Positions 7,218 through 55,767 of a stretch of 64,000 bases of DNA are shown one piece after another (position 1 is the stretch's first letter; each line of letters starts with the position of its first letter). The notes beneath the pieces were generated by a model, which saw only the letters and a list, made by a program, of their open reading frames with translations, did no database searches and was not told the DNA's origin. Origin of the DNA: Mesotoga sp. Brook.08.105.5.1 (GTDB lineage Bacteria > Thermotogota > Thermotogae > Petrotogales > Kosmotogaceae); the NCBI RefSeq assembly GCF_002752635.1, contig NZ_AYTW01000004.1, forward strand, positions 1 to 64,000, written 5' to 3'. Both the position numbers and the translations under genes were made by a program.

Positions 7218-8045
7218 AGACATTCAGTTACTGGTATTGGTGAGGGAGAGGAGTGGATTCAATCTGAGAAGACGAGAACTCAGCATATCGTGACGATAAG
7301 CAGAAGCTTTGTCGAGAGTTTCATCCTTTCATACCGTTTGATAGGAAGAGACGTAACAAGAGCTGTTCGTCGCTGATCAGTCGTTCCCCAATATGGTCAA
7401 AAAAACGATAAAGGAGTCCCTAATCAACTATTGCCGAAAAGGCCGTTCTTTAGATAGCCTGGCACAGCATTGACTTGATCTACTGATGTTTTTTCGAATT
7501 GTGCAGGTTGTGCTTCAAAGAACTGCTGTTTGCTGACACTGAACTTCCGGGGACGGAGAGATCTTCGATCCTTCAGGTTATAAGTAAGACTGTCAGCGGA
7601 AAAAAACAAGGGTGCGAGAAGCATCCTCAGTTTGGCACAAGAATCTGTAAGTTGGAATCGTGAGAATAATCAATTGCTCCTTGAGTTCATTGTCCAGCTT
7701 CTTTCTTAAGAAGCTGCGGGGCAGAATTCGTAATCCTTCTATTGAATTAGTTCGTCTGAGCCCAATGGAAACAAGGCCGTTTAATGAATTAATAGAAAGC
7801 CAATTCTTCCTCTTGTTGAAATACTTGTAGAAATTCGATCTTATGTCTTTCTCGACTAAGAGTACGGCCTCTGTCGATCTACAGAAAATGCTTAACTGCG
7901 AATCGGCATTGCATCCAAGCACGGTCTTCCCCAGCTCTGAATTATTCTGTCTTCCAGCTTGATTCAAAATCTTGTTCTTATGTTCCTACATGGCAACCTG
8001 TAATCTCAAGTCTTCCGGGCCTTATTGGTACTCTAAATGGTGAGT
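7218..8045. other. Gene-poor region, possibly holding a decayed gene
   Basis: No gene can be supported. A minus-strand open frame of 124 codons (7593-7967) has protein-like K/N/F-rich composition in its middle but no ribosome site and no family I recognise. It could be a remnant or chance. GTTCGTCGCTGATCAGTCGTTC near 7367 resembles the degenerate repeats seen at 4.7 kb. Confidence 0.4.
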
Positions 8046-9623: not shown

Positions 9624-9869
9624 TATTTTCTACCTCCGTTTTTTGGATCTTGAATAGATGTTAACCTGTGTAACTTAAAATCTCCTGAGAATCTGGAGAT
9701 CGCTCGAAGGTCAATCCTCTTGGCTTTATCTTCCCTTTTCACTCACAATCGAAGAGTTTCGCCTAACTGAATGAATATTCGTTGCAGAAATTCAGTAGTG
9801 TGTTGAGACCAGAGGTCATTGGAAATTACGAAGTTGCTCAGAGTTCTATAGCAGCCTTTCAGTCCACTA

Positions 9870-45441: not shown

Positions 45442-46146
45442 CTACAAACCAAGATAAGAGCGCTTGACATATTCATTATGCATAAGGTCTTCCGCAGTAC
45501 TCTCGATTGCAAGAGTTCCGTTCTCTATGACGTAACCCCGGTCGATTACTTTCAGACCCTGCCTAACGTTTTGCTCAGAGAGAATCATAGAGACTCCTTC
45601 AGATTTTATGGCTAAGAGTTTCTCAAAGAGCTCTGAAACCAGAGAAGGTTGGAGTCCCACTGAAGGCTCATCTAGAATCAGAAGTCTAGGAACCGCCATC
45701 AGAGCACGGCCCACTGCAAGCATTCTCTGCTGACCTCCGCTCATAGTTCCCGCCAGCTGATAAGCGCGTTCCTTAAGAATCGGAAAGATCTTGAATACAA
45801 AATCAAGCCTCTCTTCAATTCTATCTCTCGCCTCCTTGATGTAGGCAGCTCCAATCTTCAGGTTCTCGAGAACGTTCATAATAGGAAAGAGCTCACCGTC
45901 CTGAGGCACTACAGATATACCTTTTCTTATTATCGTATGGGTTTCGTACGGGATGAGAGATTCCCCTTCAAACAGTATTTCTCCGCTCGTAGGTTTAACC
46001 AAACCAATGATTGAGTTTATCAGGGTGGTCTTTCCCGCTCCATTGGGGCCGAAAAGTCCAACGGCTTCTTCTCCAACGGAAAAAGAGAAGTCCGTTACAA
46101 CCTGAATTCTCCCGTATGAGACGTTTACGTTCTTGACTTCAAGCAT
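45442..46146 (-). CDS. livF: Branched-chain amino acid-type ABC transporter ATP-binding protein LivF
   Basis: A 234-residue ATPase with Walker A GPNGAGKT near 34-41, the LivF-typical GMSGGQQ signature (TMSGGQQRMLAVGRALM) and Walker B LLILDEPS. ATG 46146 overlaps the livG stop by one base. Last ATPase of the LivKHMGF set. Confidence 0.92.
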   Translation of the reverse strand: MLEVKNVNVSYGRIQVVTDFSFSVGEEAVGLFGPNGAGKTTLINSIIGLVKPTSGEILFEGESLIPYETHTIIRKGISVVPQDGELFPIMNVLENLKIGAAYIKEARDRIEERLDFVFKIFPILKERAYQLAGTMSGGQQRMLAVGRALMAVPRLLILDEPSVGLQPSLVSELFEKLLAIKSEGVSMILSEQNVRQGLKVIDRGYVIENGTLAIESTAEDLMHNEYVKRSYLGL

Positions 46147-46862
46147 CAGGCATCCTCCCCCAAATAAGCGGTGATCACGTTGTGTTGCTGTGAAACCTCA
46201 CTATATGGACCTTCAGCGATAATTGCTCCTCTGTCTAGCACAATAACTCTCTCAGTAATCTCTCTAATTACACTCATGACGTGCTCTATTATGCAGATTG
46301 TCACACCTGTATCTCTAATCTTTCTTACAGTGTCTATCATCTCTCTGGTTTCATCCATATTCAAACCCGACATAACCTCGTCTAGAAAAAGAAGCTTTGG
46401 CTTTGTTGCCATAGCTCTGGCGATTTCGATCTTCTTGATATCCAAGACAGTTATCTTATCAAGGACTTCGTTAGGTTTAGCAAGACCGATCGTTTCGCAA
46501 AGCTTAATTGCGCTCTTTCGACTATCCTTTAGCTTTTCTCCGTTTCCGAACAGCCCACCAACCATAACATTTTCAGCTACGGTGAGATTCTTAAGGGGGC
46601 GCGCAATCTGGAAAGTTCTGGCTATACCCAAATGGCATCTCTTGTGAGTAGGCAGAAAAGTAATATCCGTACCATCAAAGAATATTCTGCCTTCACTCAC
46701 AGTATGTAGTCCCGATATCACATTTGTAAGCGTTGTCTTTCCTGCGCCATTGGGACCTATTAGCCCTAGAATCTCGCCCTGCCGAATCTCCATTGTGACA
46801 TCATCTACAGCTACAAGCCCGCCAAAGCGCTTAGTTACTTTTTCAACTTTGAGTATACTCAT
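46146..46862 (-). CDS. livG: Branched-chain amino acid-type ABC transporter ATP-binding protein LivG
   Basis: A 238-residue ATPase with Walker A GPNGAGKT, Walker B KLLFLDEVMSGL and the LivG C-terminal extension. The signature region reads VLDIKKIEIARAMATKPK, where the usual LSYGxQR is replaced by VLDIKK, an odd feature. ATG 46862 follows GGAGGAA; the frame extends to 46925 without a site and would overlap livM. Confidence 0.88.
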   Translation of the reverse strand: MSILKVEKVTKRFGGLVAVDDVTMEIRQGEILGLIGPNGAGKTTLTNVISGLHTVSEGRIFFDGTDITFLPTHKRCHLGIARTFQIARPLKNLTVAENVMVGGLFGNGEKLKDSRKSAIKLCETIGLAKPNEVLDKITVLDIKKIEIARAMATKPKLLFLDEVMSGLNMDETREMIDTVRKIRDTGVTICIIEHVMSVIREITERVIVLDRGAIIAEGPYSEVSQQHNVITAYLGEDA

Positions 46863-46863
46863 G

Positions 46864-47802
46864 TTATCGTTCCTCCAGACGGCGTTTTCTGAAACCAAGA
46901 ACATCTTTGATTGCGCCATATACACCGTTGGGTAAGAAGAGGACTACCACAACAATAATCACACCGTAGATTATCAGGTGGCCGTACGGCATGATCAGTT
47001 TAAGATACTCAGAGGATAGCCCAAGAATTATCGCTCCAATTACTGAACCTATTGTTGAGTAGATTCCCCCAACCAGGGCCATCGCTATCGGCAAGAGAAG
47101 ATAATGAGCCGAAAAGCTGCTCTCGGGGAAAACGAAGCCATACTGCAGAGCGTATGTCGCGCCGACCACACCCTGAATCATCGAAGTTACAACAAAGACG
47201 AATATCAAATACTTGTATATGTTCACTCCGTGAGATTTAGCAACGGTCTCATCCGCCCTGATAGAGTCAATGGCGAAGTGTATTCTGGTTCTTTGGAATA
47301 CTTCTGAAATTACTATTGTAATCAAGGCAACACCCAGCATAAACCAGTAGACCTTGTTCGAATCGTAGTTGAAGAGGGTGCTCAAAACGACTTTACCGCT
47401 CGGACCACCCGAGATCTTGTGAAGGTTCCTGATGATGACCATAAAAACGCTCGCTAGAGCCATTGTAGTAATAGCGAAGTAAAGACCTCTAAGTCTGAGG
47501 ATTGCCATACCCAGAACCAGCGATACAACTCCGGCGACAAGTCCACCGATTATGATTCCTGTGATAGGATCTACTCCAAGATCAGCTGCAGCGATGATTC
47601 CTGCGTATCCTCCCAGACCAAAGAAGCCTGCTGTGCCAAATGACAATTGACCCGTTCGTAACATCATGTCCCAGCTTAATGCAAGAGTCATGAACGTAAG
47701 TATCGTTATGGCAACACTTATGAAGTATGCTTCCGTGAGCAGTGGCAGCATCACAGCCGCTGCGAGAACAATCAGAAGGAGAATCGGTTTAATAATCTTC
47801 AT
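46864..47802 (-). CDS. livM: Branched-chain amino acid-type ABC transporter permease LivM
   Basis: A 312-residue permease with about nine membrane segments and the family motif AGFFGLGGYAGIIAAADLGVDP and GPSGKVVLSTLF. The EAA-like loop SIRADETVAKSHGVNIYKYLIFVFVVTSMIQGVVGATYALQYGFVFP is typical. AGGAGGCAATC precedes ATG 47802, which overlaps the livH stop by four bases. Confidence 0.92.
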   Translation of the reverse strand: MKIIKPILLLIVLAAAVMLPLLTEAYFISVAITILTFMTLALSWDMMLRTGQLSFGTAGFFGLGGYAGIIAAADLGVDPITGIIIGGLVAGVVSLVLGMAILRLRGLYFAITTMALASVFMVIIRNLHKISGGPSGKVVLSTLFNYDSNKVYWFMLGVALITIVISEVFQRTRIHFAIDSIRADETVAKSHGVNIYKYLIFVFVVTSMIQGVVGATYALQYGFVFPESSFSAHYLLLPIAMALVGGIYSTIGSVIGAIILGLSSEYLKLIMPYGHLIIYGVIIVVVVLFLPNGVYGAIKDVLGFRKRRLEER

Positions 47803-48740
47803 AGTGATTGCCTCCTTAAGGATCTAATCATGATAACTGCTATCAGTACTCCAAAGAACACGATGTCAGACCAACCGGCATATCCGGGAATCGATTGAAC
47901 GATTGCCTCTCCCACTCCTAGAACAATACCACTTATCAGAATCCCGGTTAGGTTACCGAGACCTGCCATTGCAACTAGACTGAATGATTTCATAGTGAAT
48001 GCCGCGCCCACAGAGGGAAAGATTGCAAATCTCGGCACCATTACCCCTGCTGCAATACCAAGTATGGCGACCGATAAACCAAAAACAAAGAGATAGACGA
48101 AATCGGTGTTTATCCCTACAATCTTTGCTCCGCGAGGATTCTGACCGACTGCAAAGGTAGCCTGCCCTAATCTTGTCTTTTTTAGAAAGAGTTGAAGAGC
48201 GATTAGCACTGCAAACGCTAACACAACGTAAAGCAACTCGTAAGTACCGAATCTAACGCCGGCAATCGTCGTTGAGGACGAAGAATAGTCAACATAGACG
48301 CTTCTTGGCCGGGTAGTCCAGATAACCTTCATGAGTTCCAGAACTATCATCGATATCCCGAAAGTGAGAAGCAGCTGGTTAAGGTGTCCTGCTTTAAGAA
48401 CCCTGGTTACCGTAAGCTTATAGATAACAACTCCTAGAATGAATAGCAGGAAAAACACGGGGATTATCGAAACAAGAGGATCCATACCGGTATTGACTGC
48501 AAATAGATAAACAATATAAGTTCCCAGCGATAGCAAATCGCCGTGGGCAAGGTTCATTATTCCGACTACTCCGAGAGTTAGAGCCAGAGGAAGCCCTATC
48601 AGTGCATAAAGACTACCTCTCTGAACGCCATAAATCGCGGCTAGCGGCCTCCAGATCGCGACAACCACAAGTATCGCGACAAGTATCAAAATGCCTCTAT
48701 GCTTTCTCAAGAAAGAGATCTTTTCCAAGTCTTTCACCAC
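47799..48740 (-). CDS. livH: Branched-chain amino acid-type ABC transporter permease LivH
   Basis: A 313-residue permease with the LivH signature GVVGIMNLAHGDLLSLGTYIVYL near 57-80 and AVGQNPRGAKIVGINTDFVYLFVFGLSVAILGIAAGV. GTG 48740 is the outermost start; TTG 48728 with GGTGGTGA upstream may be the real one. It follows livK across a hairpin at 48767-48790. Confidence 0.9.
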   Translation of the reverse strand: MVKDLEKISFLRKHRGILILVAILVVVAIWRPLAAIYGVQRGSLYALIGLPLALTLGVVGIMNLAHGDLLSLGTYIVYLFAVNTGMDPLVSIIPVFFLLFILGVVIYKLTVTRVLKAGHLNQLLLTFGISMIVLELMKVIWTTRPRSVYVDYSSSSTTIAGVRFGTYELLYVVLAFAVLIALQLFLKKTRLGQATFAVGQNPRGAKIVGINTDFVYLFVFGLSVAILGIAAGVMVPRFAIFPSVGAAFTMKSFSLVAMAGLGNLTGILISGIVLGVGEAIVQSIPGYAGWSDIVFFGVLIAVIMIRSLRRQSL

Positions 48741-48766
48741 CCTGGTAGCAACTTTTTCAGATAATA

Positions 48767-48790
48767 AGGTCGGGCATTGCTGCCCGACCT
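48767..48790 (-). terminator. Intercistronic hairpin between livK and livH (attenuator or 3'-end stabiliser)
   Basis: AGGTCGGGC (48767-48775) pairs perfectly with GCCCGACCT (48782-48790). On the minus strand it is followed by TTATTATC rather than a clean T run. Placed right after the binding-protein gene, it probably lets more livK mRNA accumulate than permease mRNA. Confidence 0.7.
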
Positions 48791-48798
48791 AAATCAGA

Positions 48799-50034
48799 CT
48801 ATCTCCCATCCCAGGAAGGGAATGGATATTCAGGTTCAGCTGTCTTTAACTCTAGAGGCCATATTACGTGCTGTTCGCCACCCTGCCACTGAAGTATCTT
48901 CTGAGCAGTGAAGCCCTGGTGCTTTATGACGTTACTTGGCGCAATCTTCAAGACATCACCGATTGGAGACGCATATTCCACCTGCTCTAGGGCCTTGATA
49001 AGTGCAGACTTCTCAATAGTACCAGCAGCCTTGATTCCTTCTGCAAGGAAGTAAATGTTCGTGTAACCGAGAGGAGCAAAGTAAGTTGCCGGCTCTTCCT
49101 TGAACATCTCAATGTAGGCATTCCAGAAGTGCTCGGCTACGGGGCTGATTCTGTTGATCGTTGGAGCCCACATTCCGTATAGGGTAACTCCTTCTGCCAG
49201 GGGAGAGTCGCCGAAATGTGCCGGCCATCCTGGAGGTGCTCCAACAAAGAACTTTGGTGAGAACCCGACTTCCTTTGCCTGCTGGAGCATTGGAAGAGCA
49301 TCCGCGTCATAACCCGCCCAAACGAAAAGATCCGGGTCATATTTCTTCGCCTGCTGAAGCATCGCTCGGTAATCTCCTCCGCCAAGTGCAGCACTCTTGA
49401 ACGAAACTCCCATGTAGTCGCTCATGACTTCTGCCCAAGCTCCCTGGCCTTCTGCAGCCAGTGCCTGAAGGACCAAATATGCTTCATGAGAACCGGTGCC
49501 GAAAGCTCCTTCTTCATACGCCAGGAAGACTTTGTTGATCTCAATATCAGGATAGGCTTCGGCTAGATCCGTCCAACCCTGGCCGTAGCTGGCTCCCTGC
49601 TGATAATCCCATGGATGCAGATGGAAATACCAGTCTGCGTCCGGACCGACTGCAACCTCACATTGTGAACCGGCAGCACCTATCCAGATTGTGACCTTCT
49701 GAAAGCTCTTCATAACAGGAATCTGCGCGAAGTGAACTCCAGTGCTCATACCACCGACAAAAAAGTCCACTCTATCAACGGTAGCAAGCCTGGAGATCGC
49801 TGCCGCACCCTTCTCCGGTGTCATTTCGTCATCAATTACTATCAACTCCAGAGGTCGTCCTAGTAAACCGCCTTCTGCGTTGATTTCACTTACTGCAAGT
49901 CTCATTGCCTTTGCAGCCTGATCTCCGGTGATGTCACCCAAGGGAAGAACAGCACCGATCTTGATCGGAGTAGCTGCAAAAACGATTAGTGAAGTTACAG
50001 CAGCCATAAGTAGAACCAAAAATACCTTTTTCAC
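48799..50034 (-). CDS. livK: ABC transporter substrate-binding protein, LivK type
   Basis: A 411-residue exported binding protein of the type I periplasmic fold (LivK/AmiC-like). The signal peptide is KKVFLVLLMAAVTSLIVFAA. The mature start PIKIGAVLPLGDITGDQAAKAMRLAVSEINAEGGLLGRPLELIVIDDEMTPEKGAAAISRL is classical. No lipobox cysteine. GTG 50034 has GGAGGTGGG; the frame extends to 50091 without a site. Because it sits among CoA-ester genes, its ligand may be an organic or amino acid other than leucine. Confidence 0.9.
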   Translation of the reverse strand: MKKVFLVLLMAAVTSLIVFAATPIKIGAVLPLGDITGDQAAKAMRLAVSEINAEGGLLGRPLELIVIDDEMTPEKGAAAISRLATVDRVDFFVGGMSTGVHFAQIPVMKSFQKVTIWIGAAGSQCEVAVGPDADWYFHLHPWDYQQGASYGQGWTDLAEAYPDIEINKVFLAYEEGAFGTGSHEAYLVLQALAAEGQGAWAEVMSDYMGVSFKSAALGGGDYRAMLQQAKKYDPDLFVWAGYDADALPMLQQAKEVGFSPKFFVGAPPGWPAHFGDSPLAEGVTLYGMWAPTINRISPVAEHFWNAYIEMFKEEPATYFAPLGYTNIYFLAEGIKAAGTIEKSALIKALEQVEYASPIGDVLKIAPSNVIKHQGFTAQKILQWQGGEQHVIWPLELKTAEPEYPFPSWDGR

Positions 50035-50134
50035 TTTCCCACCTCCTACGTAGGTTGTACTCCAGATGATTTCAAAAGAACGTTGGAACAAGAAAACTCT
50101 TTCCCAAAAAGCGGCATTACCTGTGATTCAGAAA

Positions 50135-51334
50135 TTAGACTCTCCTGACAACTACTGCGGTTCCCATTCCTCCGCCGATGCAAAGGGAAGCAAGCCCGAA
50201 TTCGAGATCTCTCTTCTCCATTTCGTGGACGAGCGTAACGATGATTCTGTTCCCTGAGGCTCCAATGGGATGACCAAGAGCAATTGCACCTCCATTAACA
50301 TTGGTTCTTTCAATCAGCCATTCCTTTGTGACTCCGTAGATCTCCATAAGTCCTCTAATCACGGAAAGCGCCTGAGAAGCGAAAGCCTCATTGAGCTCGA
50401 TAAGCCCTACATCCTTGATGGTCATCGCAGCTTTATTGAGAGCCTTTTCAACGGCTGGAACAGGACCGTATCCCATATATGCTGGATCGACTCCCGCCTG
50501 AGCAAATGAGACTATCTCTGCAATCGGTTTAAGCCCGTACTTCGTTACTGCTTCTTCACTTGCCAGGACGGTTGCACTTGCACCGTCATTGATTCCCGAT
50601 GAATTCCCTGCCGTTACTGAACCATCCTTCTTGAATGCAGGTCTCAGCTTCGCCAAAATCTCCATGCTTGTATCTCTAGGATGCTCATCGGTATCAAATA
50701 CAATGTCTCCCTTTCTATGCTTTATGACAACGGGAATGATTTCATCCTTGAACTTTCCTGCGGAGATTGCTTCTTTTGCCCTCTTCTGGCTTTCAAGTGC
50801 AAATTCGTCTTGCTCCTGTCTGCTTATGCTGTATTTTGCTGCGAGATTTTCCGCAGTAACGCCCATGTGATAATCGTTAAAAACATCCGTTAGCCCATCT
50901 CTTATCATGTGATCCGTTATGGAGCCGCTGCCCATCCTGTAACCAAACCTTGCCTTGTCCAGCATGTAAGGGGCTATAGACATATTCTCCATACCACCTG
51001 TCAAGACCAGATCGGCTTCGCCCGTAAGGATATCCTGGGCCCCGATCATCGTCGATTTCATTCCGGATCCGCATAGCATGTTCACTAGATATCCGGGACT
51101 CTCGATAGGTACGCCTGCTCCGATTGAGACCTGCCTTCCCGGTCCCATACCTTGATTGGCAGTCAATATGCAACCCATTATGGTTTCTTCGATGTTCTTG
51201 GGGTCTACCTCTGATTGTTCTATCGCAGCCTTTGATGCAGTAACACCAAGCTCGACCGCCGGAACATCTTTCAAAGCCCCTCCGAAAGTACCTATTGCTG
51301 TTCTCTTTGCACCAACTATGAAGACCTTCTTCAT
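50135..51334 (-). CDS. Acetyl-CoA acetyltransferase (thiolase)
   Basis: About 399 residues, a biosynthetic/degradative thiolase that interconverts acetoacetyl-CoA and two acetyl-CoA, or cleaves longer 3-oxoacyl-CoA. Active sites: Cys in NMLCGSGMKST, His in GGAIALGHPIGASG, and the final Cys in ASLCIGGGMGTA. ATG 51334 follows AGGAGGTTTTTG. It is 11 bases after the CoA-transferase gene and about 100 bases before livK. Confidence 0.93.
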   Translation of the reverse strand: MKKVFIVGAKRTAIGTFGGALKDVPAVELGVTASKAAIEQSEVDPKNIEETIMGCILTANQGMGPGRQVSIGAGVPIESPGYLVNMLCGSGMKSTMIGAQDILTGEADLVLTGGMENMSIAPYMLDKARFGYRMGSGSITDHMIRDGLTDVFNDYHMGVTAENLAAKYSISRQEQDEFALESQKRAKEAISAGKFKDEIIPVVIKHRKGDIVFDTDEHPRDTSMEILAKLRPAFKKDGSVTAGNSSGINDGASATVLASEEAVTKYGLKPIAEIVSFAQAGVDPAYMGYGPVPAVEKALNKAAMTIKDVGLIELNEAFASQALSVIRGLMEIYGVTKEWLIERTNVNGGAIALGHPIGASGNRIIVTLVHEMEKRDLEFGLASLCIGGGMGTAVVVRRV

Positions 51335-51344
51335 CAAAAACCTC

Positions 51345-52643
51345 CTAAATCAATCCAACCTCGCTGGCCTGTTTTCTTAACTCAGATCTAAAATCGGGAT
51401 GAGAGATGTTAAGCAAAGACTCTACTCTCTGGAAGACATTTAGACCCTTCAACCTCGCGATTCCAAACTCAGTGACAACATAATCAGTATCCTGCCTAGG
51501 CACAGTTACCGGAGAACCCAGAGGGAGAAGAGGAACGATTGTGGAAACGGTTCCCTTCTTGGCGGTGGACCTCAGAGCAATTATCCCCTTTCCGTTCTTC
51601 GCCATAGAGGCCCCTCTGTGAGTATCAAGCTGTCCTCCTGTGCCACTATAGTGCCTTGTTCCGATTGCTTCCGAACACACCTGTCCTGTTAGATCAACGG
51701 ATATGGCAGTATTTATGGATACCATGTTATCGTTTTGCGCAACGACGTATGGATCGTTCACATAGCTCCCTCTAAGCAAAAGAACCCCAGGATTGTCTTC
51801 CACAAAGGAGTACATTCTCTTCGTTCCAAGGGCGAAAGTAGCAATGAACTTTCCTTTCCAGAGACTCTTTCTCGAATTCGTTATCGCTCCCTTTTCGAAG
51901 AGATGAATCATGGACTCCGTGAACATTTCGGTATGTATTCCAAGTTCATGCTTGTCTTCCATCAACTTGGCAACGGCATTTGGAATACCGCCGATTCCGA
52001 TCTGCAGAGTGGCGCCATCTACAACTAATGACGATATATGCTCGCCAATTCGCATCTCCGTCTCCGAGGGTTCGGTATCGGGAAGCTCAGGAATATCAAA
52101 ACTGTTCTCTATCACATAGTCAACTTCACTTATGTGAACATGTGTGTCCCCATGGGTTCTTGGAGCCCTGTCGTTTACTTCCAGGATCACCATTTTCGCG
52201 TTCTCAACCATGTCCCTCTCGTAAACGGTAGAAAGGGAAACTGTCATGTAACCATTCTTGTCCATGGGAGATGCGACTCCCCAGAATATGTCGGGTTTGT
52301 TGGCCATAATACGTTCCACGCCAGCAGTATGTAGATTATTCGGAATGTAGGTTACAGTCCTCAGTCCGTTGCTAACTGCCTTCCTAGCACCCGTCGAGTG
52401 GAACCATGATTCATTAAGGAATCTTCCTTCGTACTCTCTGTTAACAAAGAAGGGGTACTCGCCAATGTTCAAACAAGTTGCTACGGCTACGTTTTCGACA
52501 CCATCAACCCTGTGGAGATTTTCAAGAAGACCCCGAGCTTCCATAGCGGCCATGCTGGTCACGATTTTTGTACCAGATCTTACGTTCCTGAGGCCTTCTT
52601 CTATGCTAATTCTCTTCTTCTTATATTCATCCTTCCAATTCAA
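51345..52643 (-). CDS. Acetyl-CoA hydrolase/transferase family CoA-transferase
   Basis: A 432-residue CoA-transferase of the acetate / 4-hydroxybutyrate / butyrate group. The catalytic glutamate is in QVCSEAIGTRHYSGTGGQLD. The oxyanion loop is GIGGIPNAVAK near 225. Expected to move CoA between acetyl-CoA and another carboxylic acid, activating a substrate for thiolysis. ATG 52643 overlaps the stop of the TetR gene by four bases. Confidence 0.88.
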   Translation of the reverse strand: MNWKDEYKKKRISIEEGLRNVRSGTKIVTSMAAMEARGLLENLHRVDGVENVAVATCLNIGEYPFFVNREYEGRFLNESWFHSTGARKAVSNGLRTVTYIPNNLHTAGVERIMANKPDIFWGVASPMDKNGYMTVSLSTVYERDMVENAKMVILEVNDRAPRTHGDTHVHISEVDYVIENSFDIPELPDTEPSETEMRIGEHISSLVVDGATLQIGIGGIPNAVAKLMEDKHELGIHTEMFTESMIHLFEKGAITNSRKSLWKGKFIATFALGTKRMYSFVEDNPGVLLLRGSYVNDPYVVAQNDNMVSINTAISVDLTGQVCSEAIGTRHYSGTGGQLDTHRGASMAKNGKGIIALRSTAKKGTVSTIVPLLPLGSPVTVPRQDTDYVVTEFGIARLKGLNVFQRVESLLNISHPDFRSELRKQASEVGLI

Positions 52644-53818
52644 CTAAAAGCACCTCCGTACCCTTTTGCCATTAGCGAAGCAAGTTCTATCAGATGCTCG
52701 TCCCATTTCTCGTATTCCTTTTCATTCCTAAAGAGAAGATCCAGACCCATGAAATGTCCGATCCCCATCAAGAAGACTCCAAGATCTCGCGAGTCAATCT
52801 GTCTAATCTCATTCTTGAACCTGGCCTCTTCAAGCGAACTTATGTATGATGTGAGGAGTCTTTCATAGTAGAAGCGGCCTGTCTCCGGCTGCACAAATTC
52901 CGACTCTCTCACGATGTTGTAGAGCTCCTTGTGAACATCCATGAACAGAAGAAACGCCTTGTAAGACCTGATCTCTCTGTTTAGTCTTCCTTCAACGCCG
53001 GAAACGGCGTCTCTCATTGTTCTCCTGAGATTCCTGTTTGCCTGATAAACAAGCTCCTGAAGGAGTTTCTCTTTGCTTTCGAAATGCAAGTAGAATGTAC
53101 CTTGACCGTAACCTGCCCTACTCGTGATATCGTAAATCGAAGTCTCGAAATACCCTTTCTCGCCCATAAGCCTTTCCGCAGCAAGAAGAATGACTTCTTT
53201 CGCCTTGGTACCTCCGCTTGCCTTTGTTCTGTCAAAAGTGAAATCAAGTGCTTCTCTGTCAAATTGCTCAGATTTAACAAATCCACCCAGAGTAAAATCA
53301 ACCAACGACTCTACAGTGGAATCAGGAACCCTTGTTCCGTTGTAGATAATCCAGTAGATAGCAGTAAATCTCGAACTACCAACAAGAAACCACAACTCGG
53401 GCATTGAAAGTGTGGACTTGCCTATAGAGACAGTTGAAAGAAGAGAATCCTTATAGATCTTGTCGACCGAACTCTCAACATCGGGAAATCTATACTCGGC
53501 TTCGTGGAATGCGATAAATTTCTTCCTCGATCCCCAAAGAATATTGAAGACAGTTCTATACAGATTGAAGAGTCTTTCTCTGGAATCACGACCGGTTATC
53601 GAGGTTGTTGCGGCCTCGAATTCAGCCTTAATGTCCTGCACAATTTCCTTAAACACCTGTTCTTTTCCTGCGTAATGTCTGTAAAAGGCTCCATTAGACA
53701 ATCCGCAGGTCCTACATATATTGGCAACAGACGTCATCTCAAAACCAAGACGACTGAACAGCTCTTCAGCCGCCTGCTTTATCTGTAATCTTGTTCTCTC
53801 ACTTCGAGAGATCTTCAA
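52640..53818 (-). CDS. Tandem-fused TetR family regulator (two TetR units in one chain)
   Basis: A 392-residue protein, twice the normal TetR length. The first DNA-binding domain spans residues 8-55 (RTRLQIKQAAEELFSRLGFEMTSVANICRTCGLSNGAFYRHYAGKE). The second spans 205-252 (KAKEVILLAAERLMGEKGYFETSIYDITSRAGYGQGTFYLHFESKE). Each is followed by a ligand-type helical domain. The frame is open throughout, so it is a true fusion. It overlaps the CoA-transferase by four bases and the FabG-like gene by four bases. Likely controls this block through the palindromes at 55626-55659. Confidence 0.88.
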   Translation of the reverse strand: MKISRSERTRLQIKQAAEELFSRLGFEMTSVANICRTCGLSNGAFYRHYAGKEQVFKEIVQDIKAEFEAATTSITGRDSRERLFNLYRTVFNILWGSRKKFIAFHEAEYRFPDVESSVDKIYKDSLLSTVSIGKSTLSMPELWFLVGSSRFTAIYWIIYNGTRVPDSTVESLVDFTLGGFVKSEQFDREALDFTFDRTKASGGTKAKEVILLAAERLMGEKGYFETSIYDITSRAGYGQGTFYLHFESKEKLLQELVYQANRNLRRTMRDAVSGVEGRLNREIRSYKAFLLFMDVHKELYNIVRESEFVQPETGRFYYERLLTSYISSLEEARFKNEIRQIDSRDLGVFLMGIGHFMGLDLLFRNEKEYEKWDEHLIELASLMAKGYGGAFS

Positions 53819-54561
53819 ATCACGAGTCCCCCGTCGACACCGATAACCTGACCGGTTAAGTAACTTGCTTCGTCAGAAATCAGGAAGAAGTACACATTTG
53901 CAATCTCCTCGGGAAGACCCATTCTCTTCAACGGTATCCTCTCTTCGAGCGCTGTCATTATCTTCTCGGGCATTTTCTCAGTCATTGGAGTCTTAATGAA
54001 ACCTGGAGCGACAGCATTAACTCTGATCTTGGCTCCTTTTCGAGAAAGCTCTTTTGCCCATGTCTTTGTCATGGCTATTACTCCTCCTTTGGAGGCGGAG
54101 TAGTTTGACTGACCGATATTTCCAAACACTCCGACAACTGAAGAGGTGTTGACAATTGCACCATAACCTTGATCAAGCATCACAGGCGCAATGGCCTGTG
54201 TCATGTTAAATACACCCTTCAGATTCACGTCGATAACTAGATCCCAATCTTCTTCCGTCATTCTCTGGATCAGTGCATCCCTAGTGATTCCGGCGTTGTT
54301 AACAAGCCCATCAATGTGACCATACTCACTCTTGATTTCGTTGACCAAATCAGCTATTGCCTTTCTATCCGTCACATTCAGCTTCTTTGGTATTACCTTT
54401 CCCGGGAGCTCAGCGAATTCATTCTTCAAGCCTTCAAGACCTTCAATATCCATATCGCAGGCATAGACTATCGCCCCTTCTCTCGTGAATCTCTCAACTG
54501 CTGCTTTACCAATACCTCTTGCGCCACCAGTAATGATGACAACCTTACCTTCCATTCTCAC
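53815..54561 (-). CDS. FabG-like 3-oxoacyl-ACP/acetoacetyl-CoA reductase (SDR)
   Basis: About 248 residues, a classical SDR: VVIITGGARGIGKAAVERF, NNAGITRDALIQRMTEEDWDLVIDVNLKGVFN, SSVVGVFGNIGQSNYSASKGG and the C-terminal YLTGQVIGVDGG. This pattern is shared by FabG and acetoacetyl-CoA reductase PhaB. I take GTG 54561 (GGAGG seven bases upstream); an in-frame ATG at 54555 is an alternative. Context with thiolase and CoA-transferase favours a CoA-linked 3-oxo/3-hydroxyacyl reaction. Confidence 0.88.
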   Translation of the reverse strand: MRMEGKVVIITGGARGIGKAAVERFTREGAIVYACDMDIEGLEGLKNEFAELPGKVIPKKLNVTDRKAIADLVNEIKSEYGHIDGLVNNAGITRDALIQRMTEEDWDLVIDVNLKGVFNMTQAIAPVMLDQGYGAIVNTSSVVGVFGNIGQSNYSASKGGVIAMTKTWAKELSRKGAKIRVNAVAPGFIKTPMTEKMPEKIMTALEERIPLKRMGLPEEIANVYFFLISDEASYLTGQVIGVDGGLVI

Positions 54562-54572
54562 CTTTGCGCCTC

Positions 54573-55595
54573 CTAAACTTTGCCCCATTTTACGGTTGTT
54601 GCGGCCCAGACGAAGCCTAATCCGGCGCCGACCATAACGATCACATCACCGTCTTTGATCTTTCCTTCTCTCAAACCCAATTCAATTGAGAGAATTTGAT
54701 CATTTTGTCCAAGATGGCCATAGTCATCGAGGTATGTGCTCTGTTCTTCTTTGAGTCCGAGTTCCTCAAGAACAGCAAAATGGGCTGATCTCTTGAAATG
54801 CAATATCGCCAGATAGTCAATGTCTCTTTCTGAATAACCGCTCTTTCTTAGAGACTCTCTGATAACCCAATAGAAGTTGGGCATTGTCGTCTCTCCAAGG
54901 CGCTTCTTGAATTCTGCCGTGTCTCCCTGGACACGAAAATGGTATTCCGACACATCTTCTCTGCTCATCGGCCATTTTTTTGTTCCGCCTACCGGGACGA
55001 CACAAAGTTCGGAAAAGGAGCCGTCACCTTTGAATGCGGAAGAGAGAACGACATTTTCGTTATACCCTTTCTTCATGACTACTGCCGCTCCGCTTGCTCC
55101 AACATCCAGCATAAAAGAAGTAGAGGGCTCGGAGAGATTCATCAGATCAACATTCCTATAGCCGCTTACAAGGAGCACTGTTTCCACGTCGTCTCGCGCT
55201 ATCATCATACTCTTTGCGATATCCATGCCAGCCATCATCGAGCCGCACATGGCTTCCATATCGAACGACCAGGCATTTGTTGCCCCAATCTCGTCGGCCA
55301 CCTTTAATCCGGCCAACCAGCAAGGATAATCCTTGTGTTGAGCTCCATTCCAGATTATCAAATCGACATCTTTGGGATGAGTACCGGAGTTTTCGAGAGC
55401 TTTCTTTGCGGCTCTTATTCCCATGCTGCTCGTTGTGTCTTCTGGTCCTGGAAGCAATCTCCTCTTCACCCCGAACTTCAGTTCTATCACGTCTCGAGGA
55501 ATTCCAGTCGCCTCAGCTATCTGGTCGGGCGTCATGTAACTGTCGGGTATGTATGTCCCGATTCCCGCTATGCCAATTACCGGAACTGAACTCAC
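54573..55595 (-). CDS. Ketoacyl-ACP synthase III-like enzyme
   Basis: About 340 residues with the FabH fold. It carries the catalytic Cys (about 117) in DMEAMCGSMMAG, His in ILHFKRSAH and Asn in YGHLGQNDQ, so the Cys-His-Asn triad is complete. LKFGVKRRLLPGPEDTTSSMGIRAAKKAL is typical of the N-terminal half. It lacks a fatty-acid operon context and leads a CoA-ester catabolic block, so a condensing or cleaving role on a special acyl-CoA is more likely than fatty acid initiation. GTG 55595 is chosen after AGGGGTGATC; frame opens at 55604. Confidence 0.85.
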   Translation of the reverse strand: MSSVPVIGIAGIGTYIPDSYMTPDQIAEATGIPRDVIELKFGVKRRLLPGPEDTTSSMGIRAAKKALENSGTHPKDVDLIIWNGAQHKDYPCWLAGLKVADEIGATNAWSFDMEAMCGSMMAGMDIAKSMMIARDDVETVLLVSGYRNVDLMNLSEPSTSFMLDVGASGAAVVMKKGYNENVVLSSAFKGDGSFSELCVVPVGGTKKWPMSREDVSEYHFRVQGDTAEFKKRLGETTMPNFYWVIRESLRKSGYSERDIDYLAILHFKRSAHFAVLEELGLKEEQSTYLDDYGHLGQNDQILSIELGLREGKIKDGDVIVMVGAGLGFVWAATTVKWGKV

Positions 55596-55625
55596 CAAGA
55601 TCACCCCTCACACTTTGCGTGGCGT

Positions 55626-55659
55626 GATTCATCTCTCATAAATGAAAGATGAATCATCT
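55626..55659. promoter_or_regulatory. Overlapping palindromic operators upstream of the KASIII/TetR operon
   Basis: GATTCATCT (55626-55634) and AGATGAATC (55647-55655) form perfect 9-base arms. Between them TCAT-AA-ATGA continues the symmetry, giving a 30-bp palindrome with one mismatched pair. The right arm is shared with a second palindrome AGATGA-A-TCATCT (55647-55659). A fourth AGATGA lies at 55738-55743. The site is about 30-70 bases upstream of the KASIII-like start, downstream of a TATTCT box on the minus strand, as expected for repression. Confidence 0.72.
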
Positions 55660-55767
55660 CTCACTTTTAGAATACACTAAACCCTTTGAGATTCTAAGTT
55701 CGATTTGAGCCGTTTAACGAGGATTATTGTCGAAGTAAGATGAATAACTTCTACATTGTCTTGTTTA

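Follow-up and report, generated by a model that had tools for sequence, protein, structure and literature searches.

The window analysed here, a 64,000-nucleotide stretch of Mesotoga sp. Brook.08.105.5.1 DNA, encodes a 392-aa TetR regulator (52640..53818, minus strand) with two TetR halves in a single ORF. The protein is a double TFR and belongs to a known kind of regulator, the Mce3R type. It probably acts like Mce3R, as a repressor in which a single chain does the work of a TetR dimer; as a pseudo-heterodimer it would occupy 14-bp operator units and keep its own fatty-acyl/keto-acid operon off until acyl-CoA binds.

Two TetR halves in one reading frame

The ORF begins with a TTG codon, overlaps the stop of the upstream SDR gene by 4 nt and has a GGGGGA stretch 8 nt ahead of its start. 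Two matches to the Pfam family TetR_N (PF00440) were found in the 392-aa protein (whole-protein E 1.6e-28). Scored alone, each copy exceeded the Pfam curated cut-off of 24 bits: 48.5 bits for the first helix-turn-helix domain (53642..53776, minus strand; ~aa 15-59), with the recognition stretch GLSNGAFYRHY, and 58.5 bits for the second (53051..53191, minus strand; ~aa 210-256), with the recognition stretch GYGQGTFYLHF. As both copies lie above the cut-off and are stop-free, the original prediction of two complete TetR regulators in one frame was borne out. A full-length double TetR in one frame was present in 68 of the 103 sampled Thermotogota genomes, counted as search-table rows that run from the first head far into the second half; in three more genomes it was split over contig ends. 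The named organisms nearest to the genome of the window are Mesotoga and Kosmotogaceae MAGs. A chance ORF or a frameshift was ruled out, since the relatives in these 68 genomes (28-87% identity) keep both halves in frame. The two halves are 20% identical in a profile alignment, i.e., related only at the general TetR level. Behind each head lies an all-helical TetR ligand/dimerisation domain, either half of the structure models matching single TetR structures, and the linker between the halves (53207..53281, minus strand; aa 180-204) was of low confidence in both models.

The recognition helices of both heads were found to be conserved among 45 aligned double TetRs. In the first head S30, I34, Y46, and K52 are invariant and F45 near-invariant, and in the second head G240, Y243, and K249 are invariant, which supports the earlier claim of two different DNA-reading heads per chain. 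It is quite improbable that DNA is read by a single head and that the remaining TetR half serves as an internal dimer partner or as a ligand domain. Such an arrangement would agree with the higher conservation in the phylum of the second recognition helix, and likewise of the right-hand side of the operator unit described below, as well as with the mean pairwise identity of 42% for second halves compared with 31% for first halves. However, the residues of the first head listed above are retained, the left half-site TGARA of the operator unit is conserved alongside that head, and Mce3R no longer binds once Arg53 of its first head is changed (PMC11667970).

Structure prediction of the monomer, one of the checks proposed with the original prediction, gave two models for which Mce3R of M. 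tuberculosis (PDB 9b7y) was the top whole-chain PDB match, covering both halves. For the window protein, aligned with five relatives in a shallow alignment of 6 sequences, AlphaFold2 yielded a pLDDT of 64 and a pTM of 0.57, the second half being of low confidence; the relative L040 (52% identity) was modelled with a pLDDT of 72.7 and a pTM of 0.72. VIA-align against 9b7y gave Z 19.2 over 340 residues (rmsd 5.9) for the window protein and Z 23.8 over 358 residues (rmsd 5.6) for L040, for which the next-ranked entries were single TetRs with Z ≤14, about 10 below Mce3R. The whole chain is thus predicted to fold as one TetR-dimer-like omega, a single-chain pseudo-dimer. Mce3R (Rv1963c) forms an asymmetric omega per polypeptide, with a single ligand domain and a pair of heads ~32 Å apart on one non-palindromic site, and homodimerises via helix 15, carrying two DNA duplexes (PMC11667970). 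Like Mce3R, the Thermotogota protein has two different TetR halves in a chain of ~400 aa, intact heads and the same predicted fold; it differs in belonging to another phylum and in its second half, which resembles FadRSa. At the sequence level the resemblance to Mce3R is slight (12-15% identity, E 8.7e-5, with the best stretch confined to 9-75), and many single TetRs match as well. The original prediction drew the right contrast with ordinary TetR proteins, but a fused TetR was already known in Mce3R (PMC11667970).

Directional operator units ahead of the operon

The double TetR gene lies within an operon on the minus strand. Its first gene encodes a KAS-III-like 3-oxoacyl synthase (54573..55604; NF005308/PRK06840, 459.7 bits, cut-off 315), followed by an SDR of the 3-oxoacyl-ACP/acetoacetyl-CoA reductase type (53815..54588). 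Downstream of the regulator are a CoA-transferase of the butyryl-CoA:acetate type (51345..52643; below the equivalog cut-off), an acetyl-CoA C-acyltransferase (thiolase; 50135..51337) and a LIV-type ABC transporter (46864..50091) with a binding protein (48799-50091) and a permease (47799-48740). A second LIV permease (46864-47802) and the probable LIV ATPases (46146-46925 and 45442-46146) were assigned from their position and from relatives. Of 38 loci inspected together with their neighbouring genes, most had this company of KAS-III-like synthase, SDR, CoA-transferase, thiolase and LIV-type ABC transporter, with a varying gene order. Identity to the window genes is only 23-39% for the LIV transporter in many relatives (L077-L081 and others), compared with 57-76% for the CoA-transferase and thiolase. 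The LIV transporter therefore seems to have been exchanged beneath the same regulator.

When the region ahead of the KAS-III gene was aligned across 14 Kosmotogaceae, a single block of 39 bp stood out, 90% conserved against 58% in the 5′ flank; in the direction of the operon this block consists of TGAGAnnTGATTCA, 11 bp and TGAGAnnTGAATCA. The operator unit is a directional 14-mer, TGARAnnTGAWTCA, a pseudo-palindrome in which TGA and TCA stand 8 bp apart and the inner bases are unlike. Three putative units are present in the window: unit A, TGAGAGATGATTCA (55650..55663, minus strand); unit C, TGAGAGATGAATCA (55625..55638, minus strand), which has the direction of A at a period of 25 bp; and unit B, TGAAAGATGAATCA (55643..55656, plus strand), which is inverted, overlaps A and is found at this place in Kosmotogaceae only. 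The three-half-site operator originally proposed at 55626-55659 is hence real conserved DNA, but it comprises three 14-bp units instead of half-sites, the three copies of GATTCATCT being the right-hand parts of units A, B, and C. In the window the 9-mer GATTCATCT showed no enrichment, with 22 copies against an expected 32. A 13-bp palindrome, AGATGAATCATCT, was rejected as the conserved element on the upstream alignment. The units sit just downstream of a −10-like sequence. In the window a probable −10 box, TATTCT (4/6; 55669..55674, minus strand), was read by eye 5 nt upstream of unit A with a weak −35, and the proposed −10/−35 was not listed by a promoter scan; in family f9, TATAAT occupies the same place.

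A pattern spanning the entire block and tolerating up to 3 mismatches was present as a single copy in all 15 family genomes that carry the double TetR and absent from both that lack it, and the reversed-pattern control gave 0. A stricter direct-repeat pattern was found in 22 of 71 genomes with a double TetR and in 0 of 32 without (Fisher p 8e-5), and in at least 17 of these 22 the site lay within ~10 kb of the double-TetR gene. Operator-like 14-mers of ≥10 bits at 38 non-Kosmotogaceae loci numbered 116 against 26-159 in column-shuffled matrices. Owing to this lack of excess, weak single matches were discarded and only paired, upstream or near-exact units were counted. Among unit pairs, 39 were direct, all with a period of 19-25 bp although up to 45 was allowed, and 21 were inverted, 14 of the latter being the Kosmotogaceae units B and C. 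Two same-direction units 19-25 bp apart were present in five families. Three further exact units occur in the Mesotoga genome itself, two inside reading frames and one at a gene junction within a gene run. In family f8 (L082-L086), where the double TetR gene comes first in the cluster, operator-like units that are inverted or degenerate lie between the double TetR and the KAS-III gene, in contrast to the direct repeats of other families. From the conservation of the motif, we infer that the asymmetric, non-palindromic site is the operator of the double TetR.

It is very unlikely that the site is the operator of another regulator and that the double TetR acts elsewhere. Binding by the double TetR is deduced from co-occurrence only, and several other TetRs are present per genome; but the presence of the site tracks the double TetR, the site stays at the operon despite altered gene order, it recurs with the double TetR in Fusobacteriota, and stand-alone relatives of the second half adjoin TGAAAcaTGAATCATTATTCATGTTTC-like sites in Alphaproteobacteria.

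Pairing of two double chains into a homodimer, with like halves contacting each other across chains so that two separate heads bind two palindromes or bridge distant half-sites, is likewise rather unlikely. Mce3R itself homodimerises and holds two DNA duplexes (PMC11667970), and in Kosmotogaceae units B and C together also form a true palindrome (11/13 pairs in the window), a potential site for a homodimer of chains. However, the universal operator element has a direction, direct repeats, some of them dyad-free (L151, L164, and L176), occur in families f2, f6, f7, and f9, and in G084/G085 lone units stand upstream of two genes. Both models, moreover, resemble the Mce3R monomer and not an open two-headed chain. 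Hence, the internal heterodimer of the original prediction is retained as a pseudo-heterodimer, in agreement with the Mce3R-like models and the asymmetric unit, and its alternative, the bridging of several half-sites, is not needed. One chain per unit would suffice, because other families have one unit or two direct units. The arrangement is comparable to that of Mce3R, with two-copy non-palindromic sites ahead of a lipid-related operon and the regulator gene inside its own regulon. The Mce3R sites, however, are two of 25 bp that are 53 bp apart, compared with the 14-bp directional units 19-25 bp apart in Thermotogota, and the target is mce3 instead of a KAS-III/CoA-transferase/LIV operon.

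Origin of the fusion and its stand-alone relatives

The separate phylogeny of each half, another check proposed with the original prediction, placed the first halves in one clade (SH-aLRT 92) and the second halves in another (97), the latter adjoining stand-alone alphaproteobacterial TetRs. This split, with free single TetRs on the side of the second halves, speaks for a fusion of two unlike TetRs and against internal duplication of one TetR, a preference that is not firm on a midpoint-rooted tree. Both halves of a Cetobacterium protein grouped with the same Thermotogota family, each in its own half-clade, and first-half and second-half identities between proteins showed a correlation of 0.91. 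Together with the separate half-clades, these observations indicate a single ancient fusion that would then have been inherited as one unit.

The Cetobacterium somerae double TetR (L187, 9995-11116) is encoded on a plasmid of this member of the Fusobacteriota, flanked by CoA-transferase and thiolase genes in a CoA-transferase/thiolase/acyl-CoA dehydrogenase cluster, and both halves are nested in the Thermotogota family. It looks like an acquisition via horizontal transfer. The operator unit is also present ahead of the CoA-transferase and thiolase genes around it, and three TGAGAAnnnRTTC-type sites were seen upstream of the cluster genes. The operon, which comprises a CoA-transferase, thiolase, reductase, MaoC, acyl-CoA dehydrogenase, and ETF, suggests a pathway for short-chain hydroxy- or keto-acids. 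In the plasmid collection, one other two-domain TetR was found besides that of Cetobacterium, a 456-aa regulator among acyl-CoA genes of Sagittula sp. (L188, 4923-6293). It matches the query at both heads over 67% of the query length and is possibly another, independent double TetR. A paralogous second double TetR (L089, 6167-7330; 28% identical) lies directly 3′ of two ABC-exporter-like genes, so the double TetR has spread to other targets as well.

The alphaproteobacterial stand-alone TetRs, from plasmid records of Roseinatronobacter, Nitratireductor, Hoeflea, and Mameliella, are sister to the second half. They share 36-39% identity with it, have similar gene company in operons with LIV-ABC, alpha/beta-hydrolase, acyl-CoA ligase, and enoyl-CoA hydratase genes, and carry a similar TGAAAnnTGAWTCA core upstream. 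In contrast to the double TetR, they are ~196 aa long with one TetR, and their sites are mostly near-palindromic. Sites such as TGAAACATGATTCAGTATTCATGTTTC lie just upstream of the operon genes, and most of them exceed the symmetry expected by chance (shuffle p 0.004-0.08). Near-palindromic TGAAACATGAATCATTATTCATGTTTC-like sites adjoin the stand-alone TetRs at L189 216-240, L221 ~7968-7994, and L224 ~9730-9760, and with these TetRs they apparently constitute an unnamed regulon. Owing to these similar but more symmetric sites, the TGAAAnnTGAWTCA core appears to be older than the fusion, the fused lineage having apparently retained mostly the directional part; the symmetric B/C pair of Kosmotogaceae is an exception.

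The FadRSa-like half and the proposed mechanism

The second half (52643..53188, minus strand; aa 211-392) resembles FadRSa of Sulfolobus acidocaldarius (PDB 6el2, 6en8), an acyl-CoA-sensing repressor of beta-oxidation genes (PMC6449355). The alignment is gapless over 162 residues (aa 199-360, E 4e-26). The FadRSa numbering of PMC6449355 agrees with it residue by residue, and the residues tested in FadRSa can therefore be transferred to the double TetR. Gly48, without which FadRSa does not bind DNA (PMC6449355), corresponds to G240 and Tyr51 to Y243, both kept in 45 of 45 double TetRs. Several acyl-CoA contacts are shared as well. The CoA contacts Arg73 and Arg86 (PMC6449355) correspond to R265 and R278 and are retained in 44 and 43 of the 45 proteins, respectively; Phe97 corresponds to F289 (44 of 45), and Phe126 is replaced by Tyr (Y318) in all. 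Among the other contact positions, K77 is partly kept, and Arg132, likewise a CoA contact (PMC6449355), F68, and F111 are not kept. Unlike the double TetR, FadRSa is a single TetR that binds a 16-bp semi-palindrome as a homodimer (PMC6449355).

In the proposed single-chain mechanism, the two unequal TetR halves are predicted to pack together like a normal TetR dimer, giving one polypeptide with two different recognition helices. The pseudo-heterodimer would cover one asymmetric TGARAnn/TGAWTCA unit with its two unlike heads, as a pseudo-palindrome with unlike inner bases would suit two unlike heads of a TetR-like pair. Given the geometry seen downstream of the −10 box, two or more chains on same-direction units would block the start of transcription. 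The KAS-III/SDR/double-TetR/CoA-transferase/thiolase/LIV-ABC operon, with the repressor's own gene, would thereby be repressed. Acyl-CoA or beta-ketoacyl-CoA may bind mainly to the FadRSa-like half, alter the spacing of the heads and free the DNA, and the inducer probably arises as an intermediate in the pathway that the operon encodes. Against this mechanism stand the loss of the R132 contact of FadRSa, the units of family f8, which are degenerate and not direct, the weak similarity to Mce3R, the low confidence of the window model in the second half with its shallow alignment, and the B/C palindrome of Kosmotogaceae.

A literature search on double or tandem TetRs, with subscription journals mostly outside its coverage, returned work on Mce3R only. 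Double TetRs have so far come mainly from actinomycetes and have been described as rare, with one solved structure. The double-TetR kind itself is known from Mce3R; what is new here is the phylum-wide group, the FadR-like half, and the directional unit code. A second, phylum-wide group of double TetRs is thus at hand with a predicted operator, a clear target operon, and stand-alone second-half relatives at near-palindromic versions of the site. It opens to test a general question, what a dimeric regulator gains once its halves are fused and free to diverge, and the short directional site may be of interest for orthogonal repressor design. With the case for and against evenly balanced in our judgment, the fusion may have released the lineage from two-fold symmetric operators, so that promoters throughout the phylum could be built from one, two, or three directional 14-bp words, placed singly, repeated in one direction some two helical turns apart, or inverted; Mce3R would then be a parallel case of independent origin. 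If true, such a modular arrangement of words would be one that has not been described for TetR regulators.
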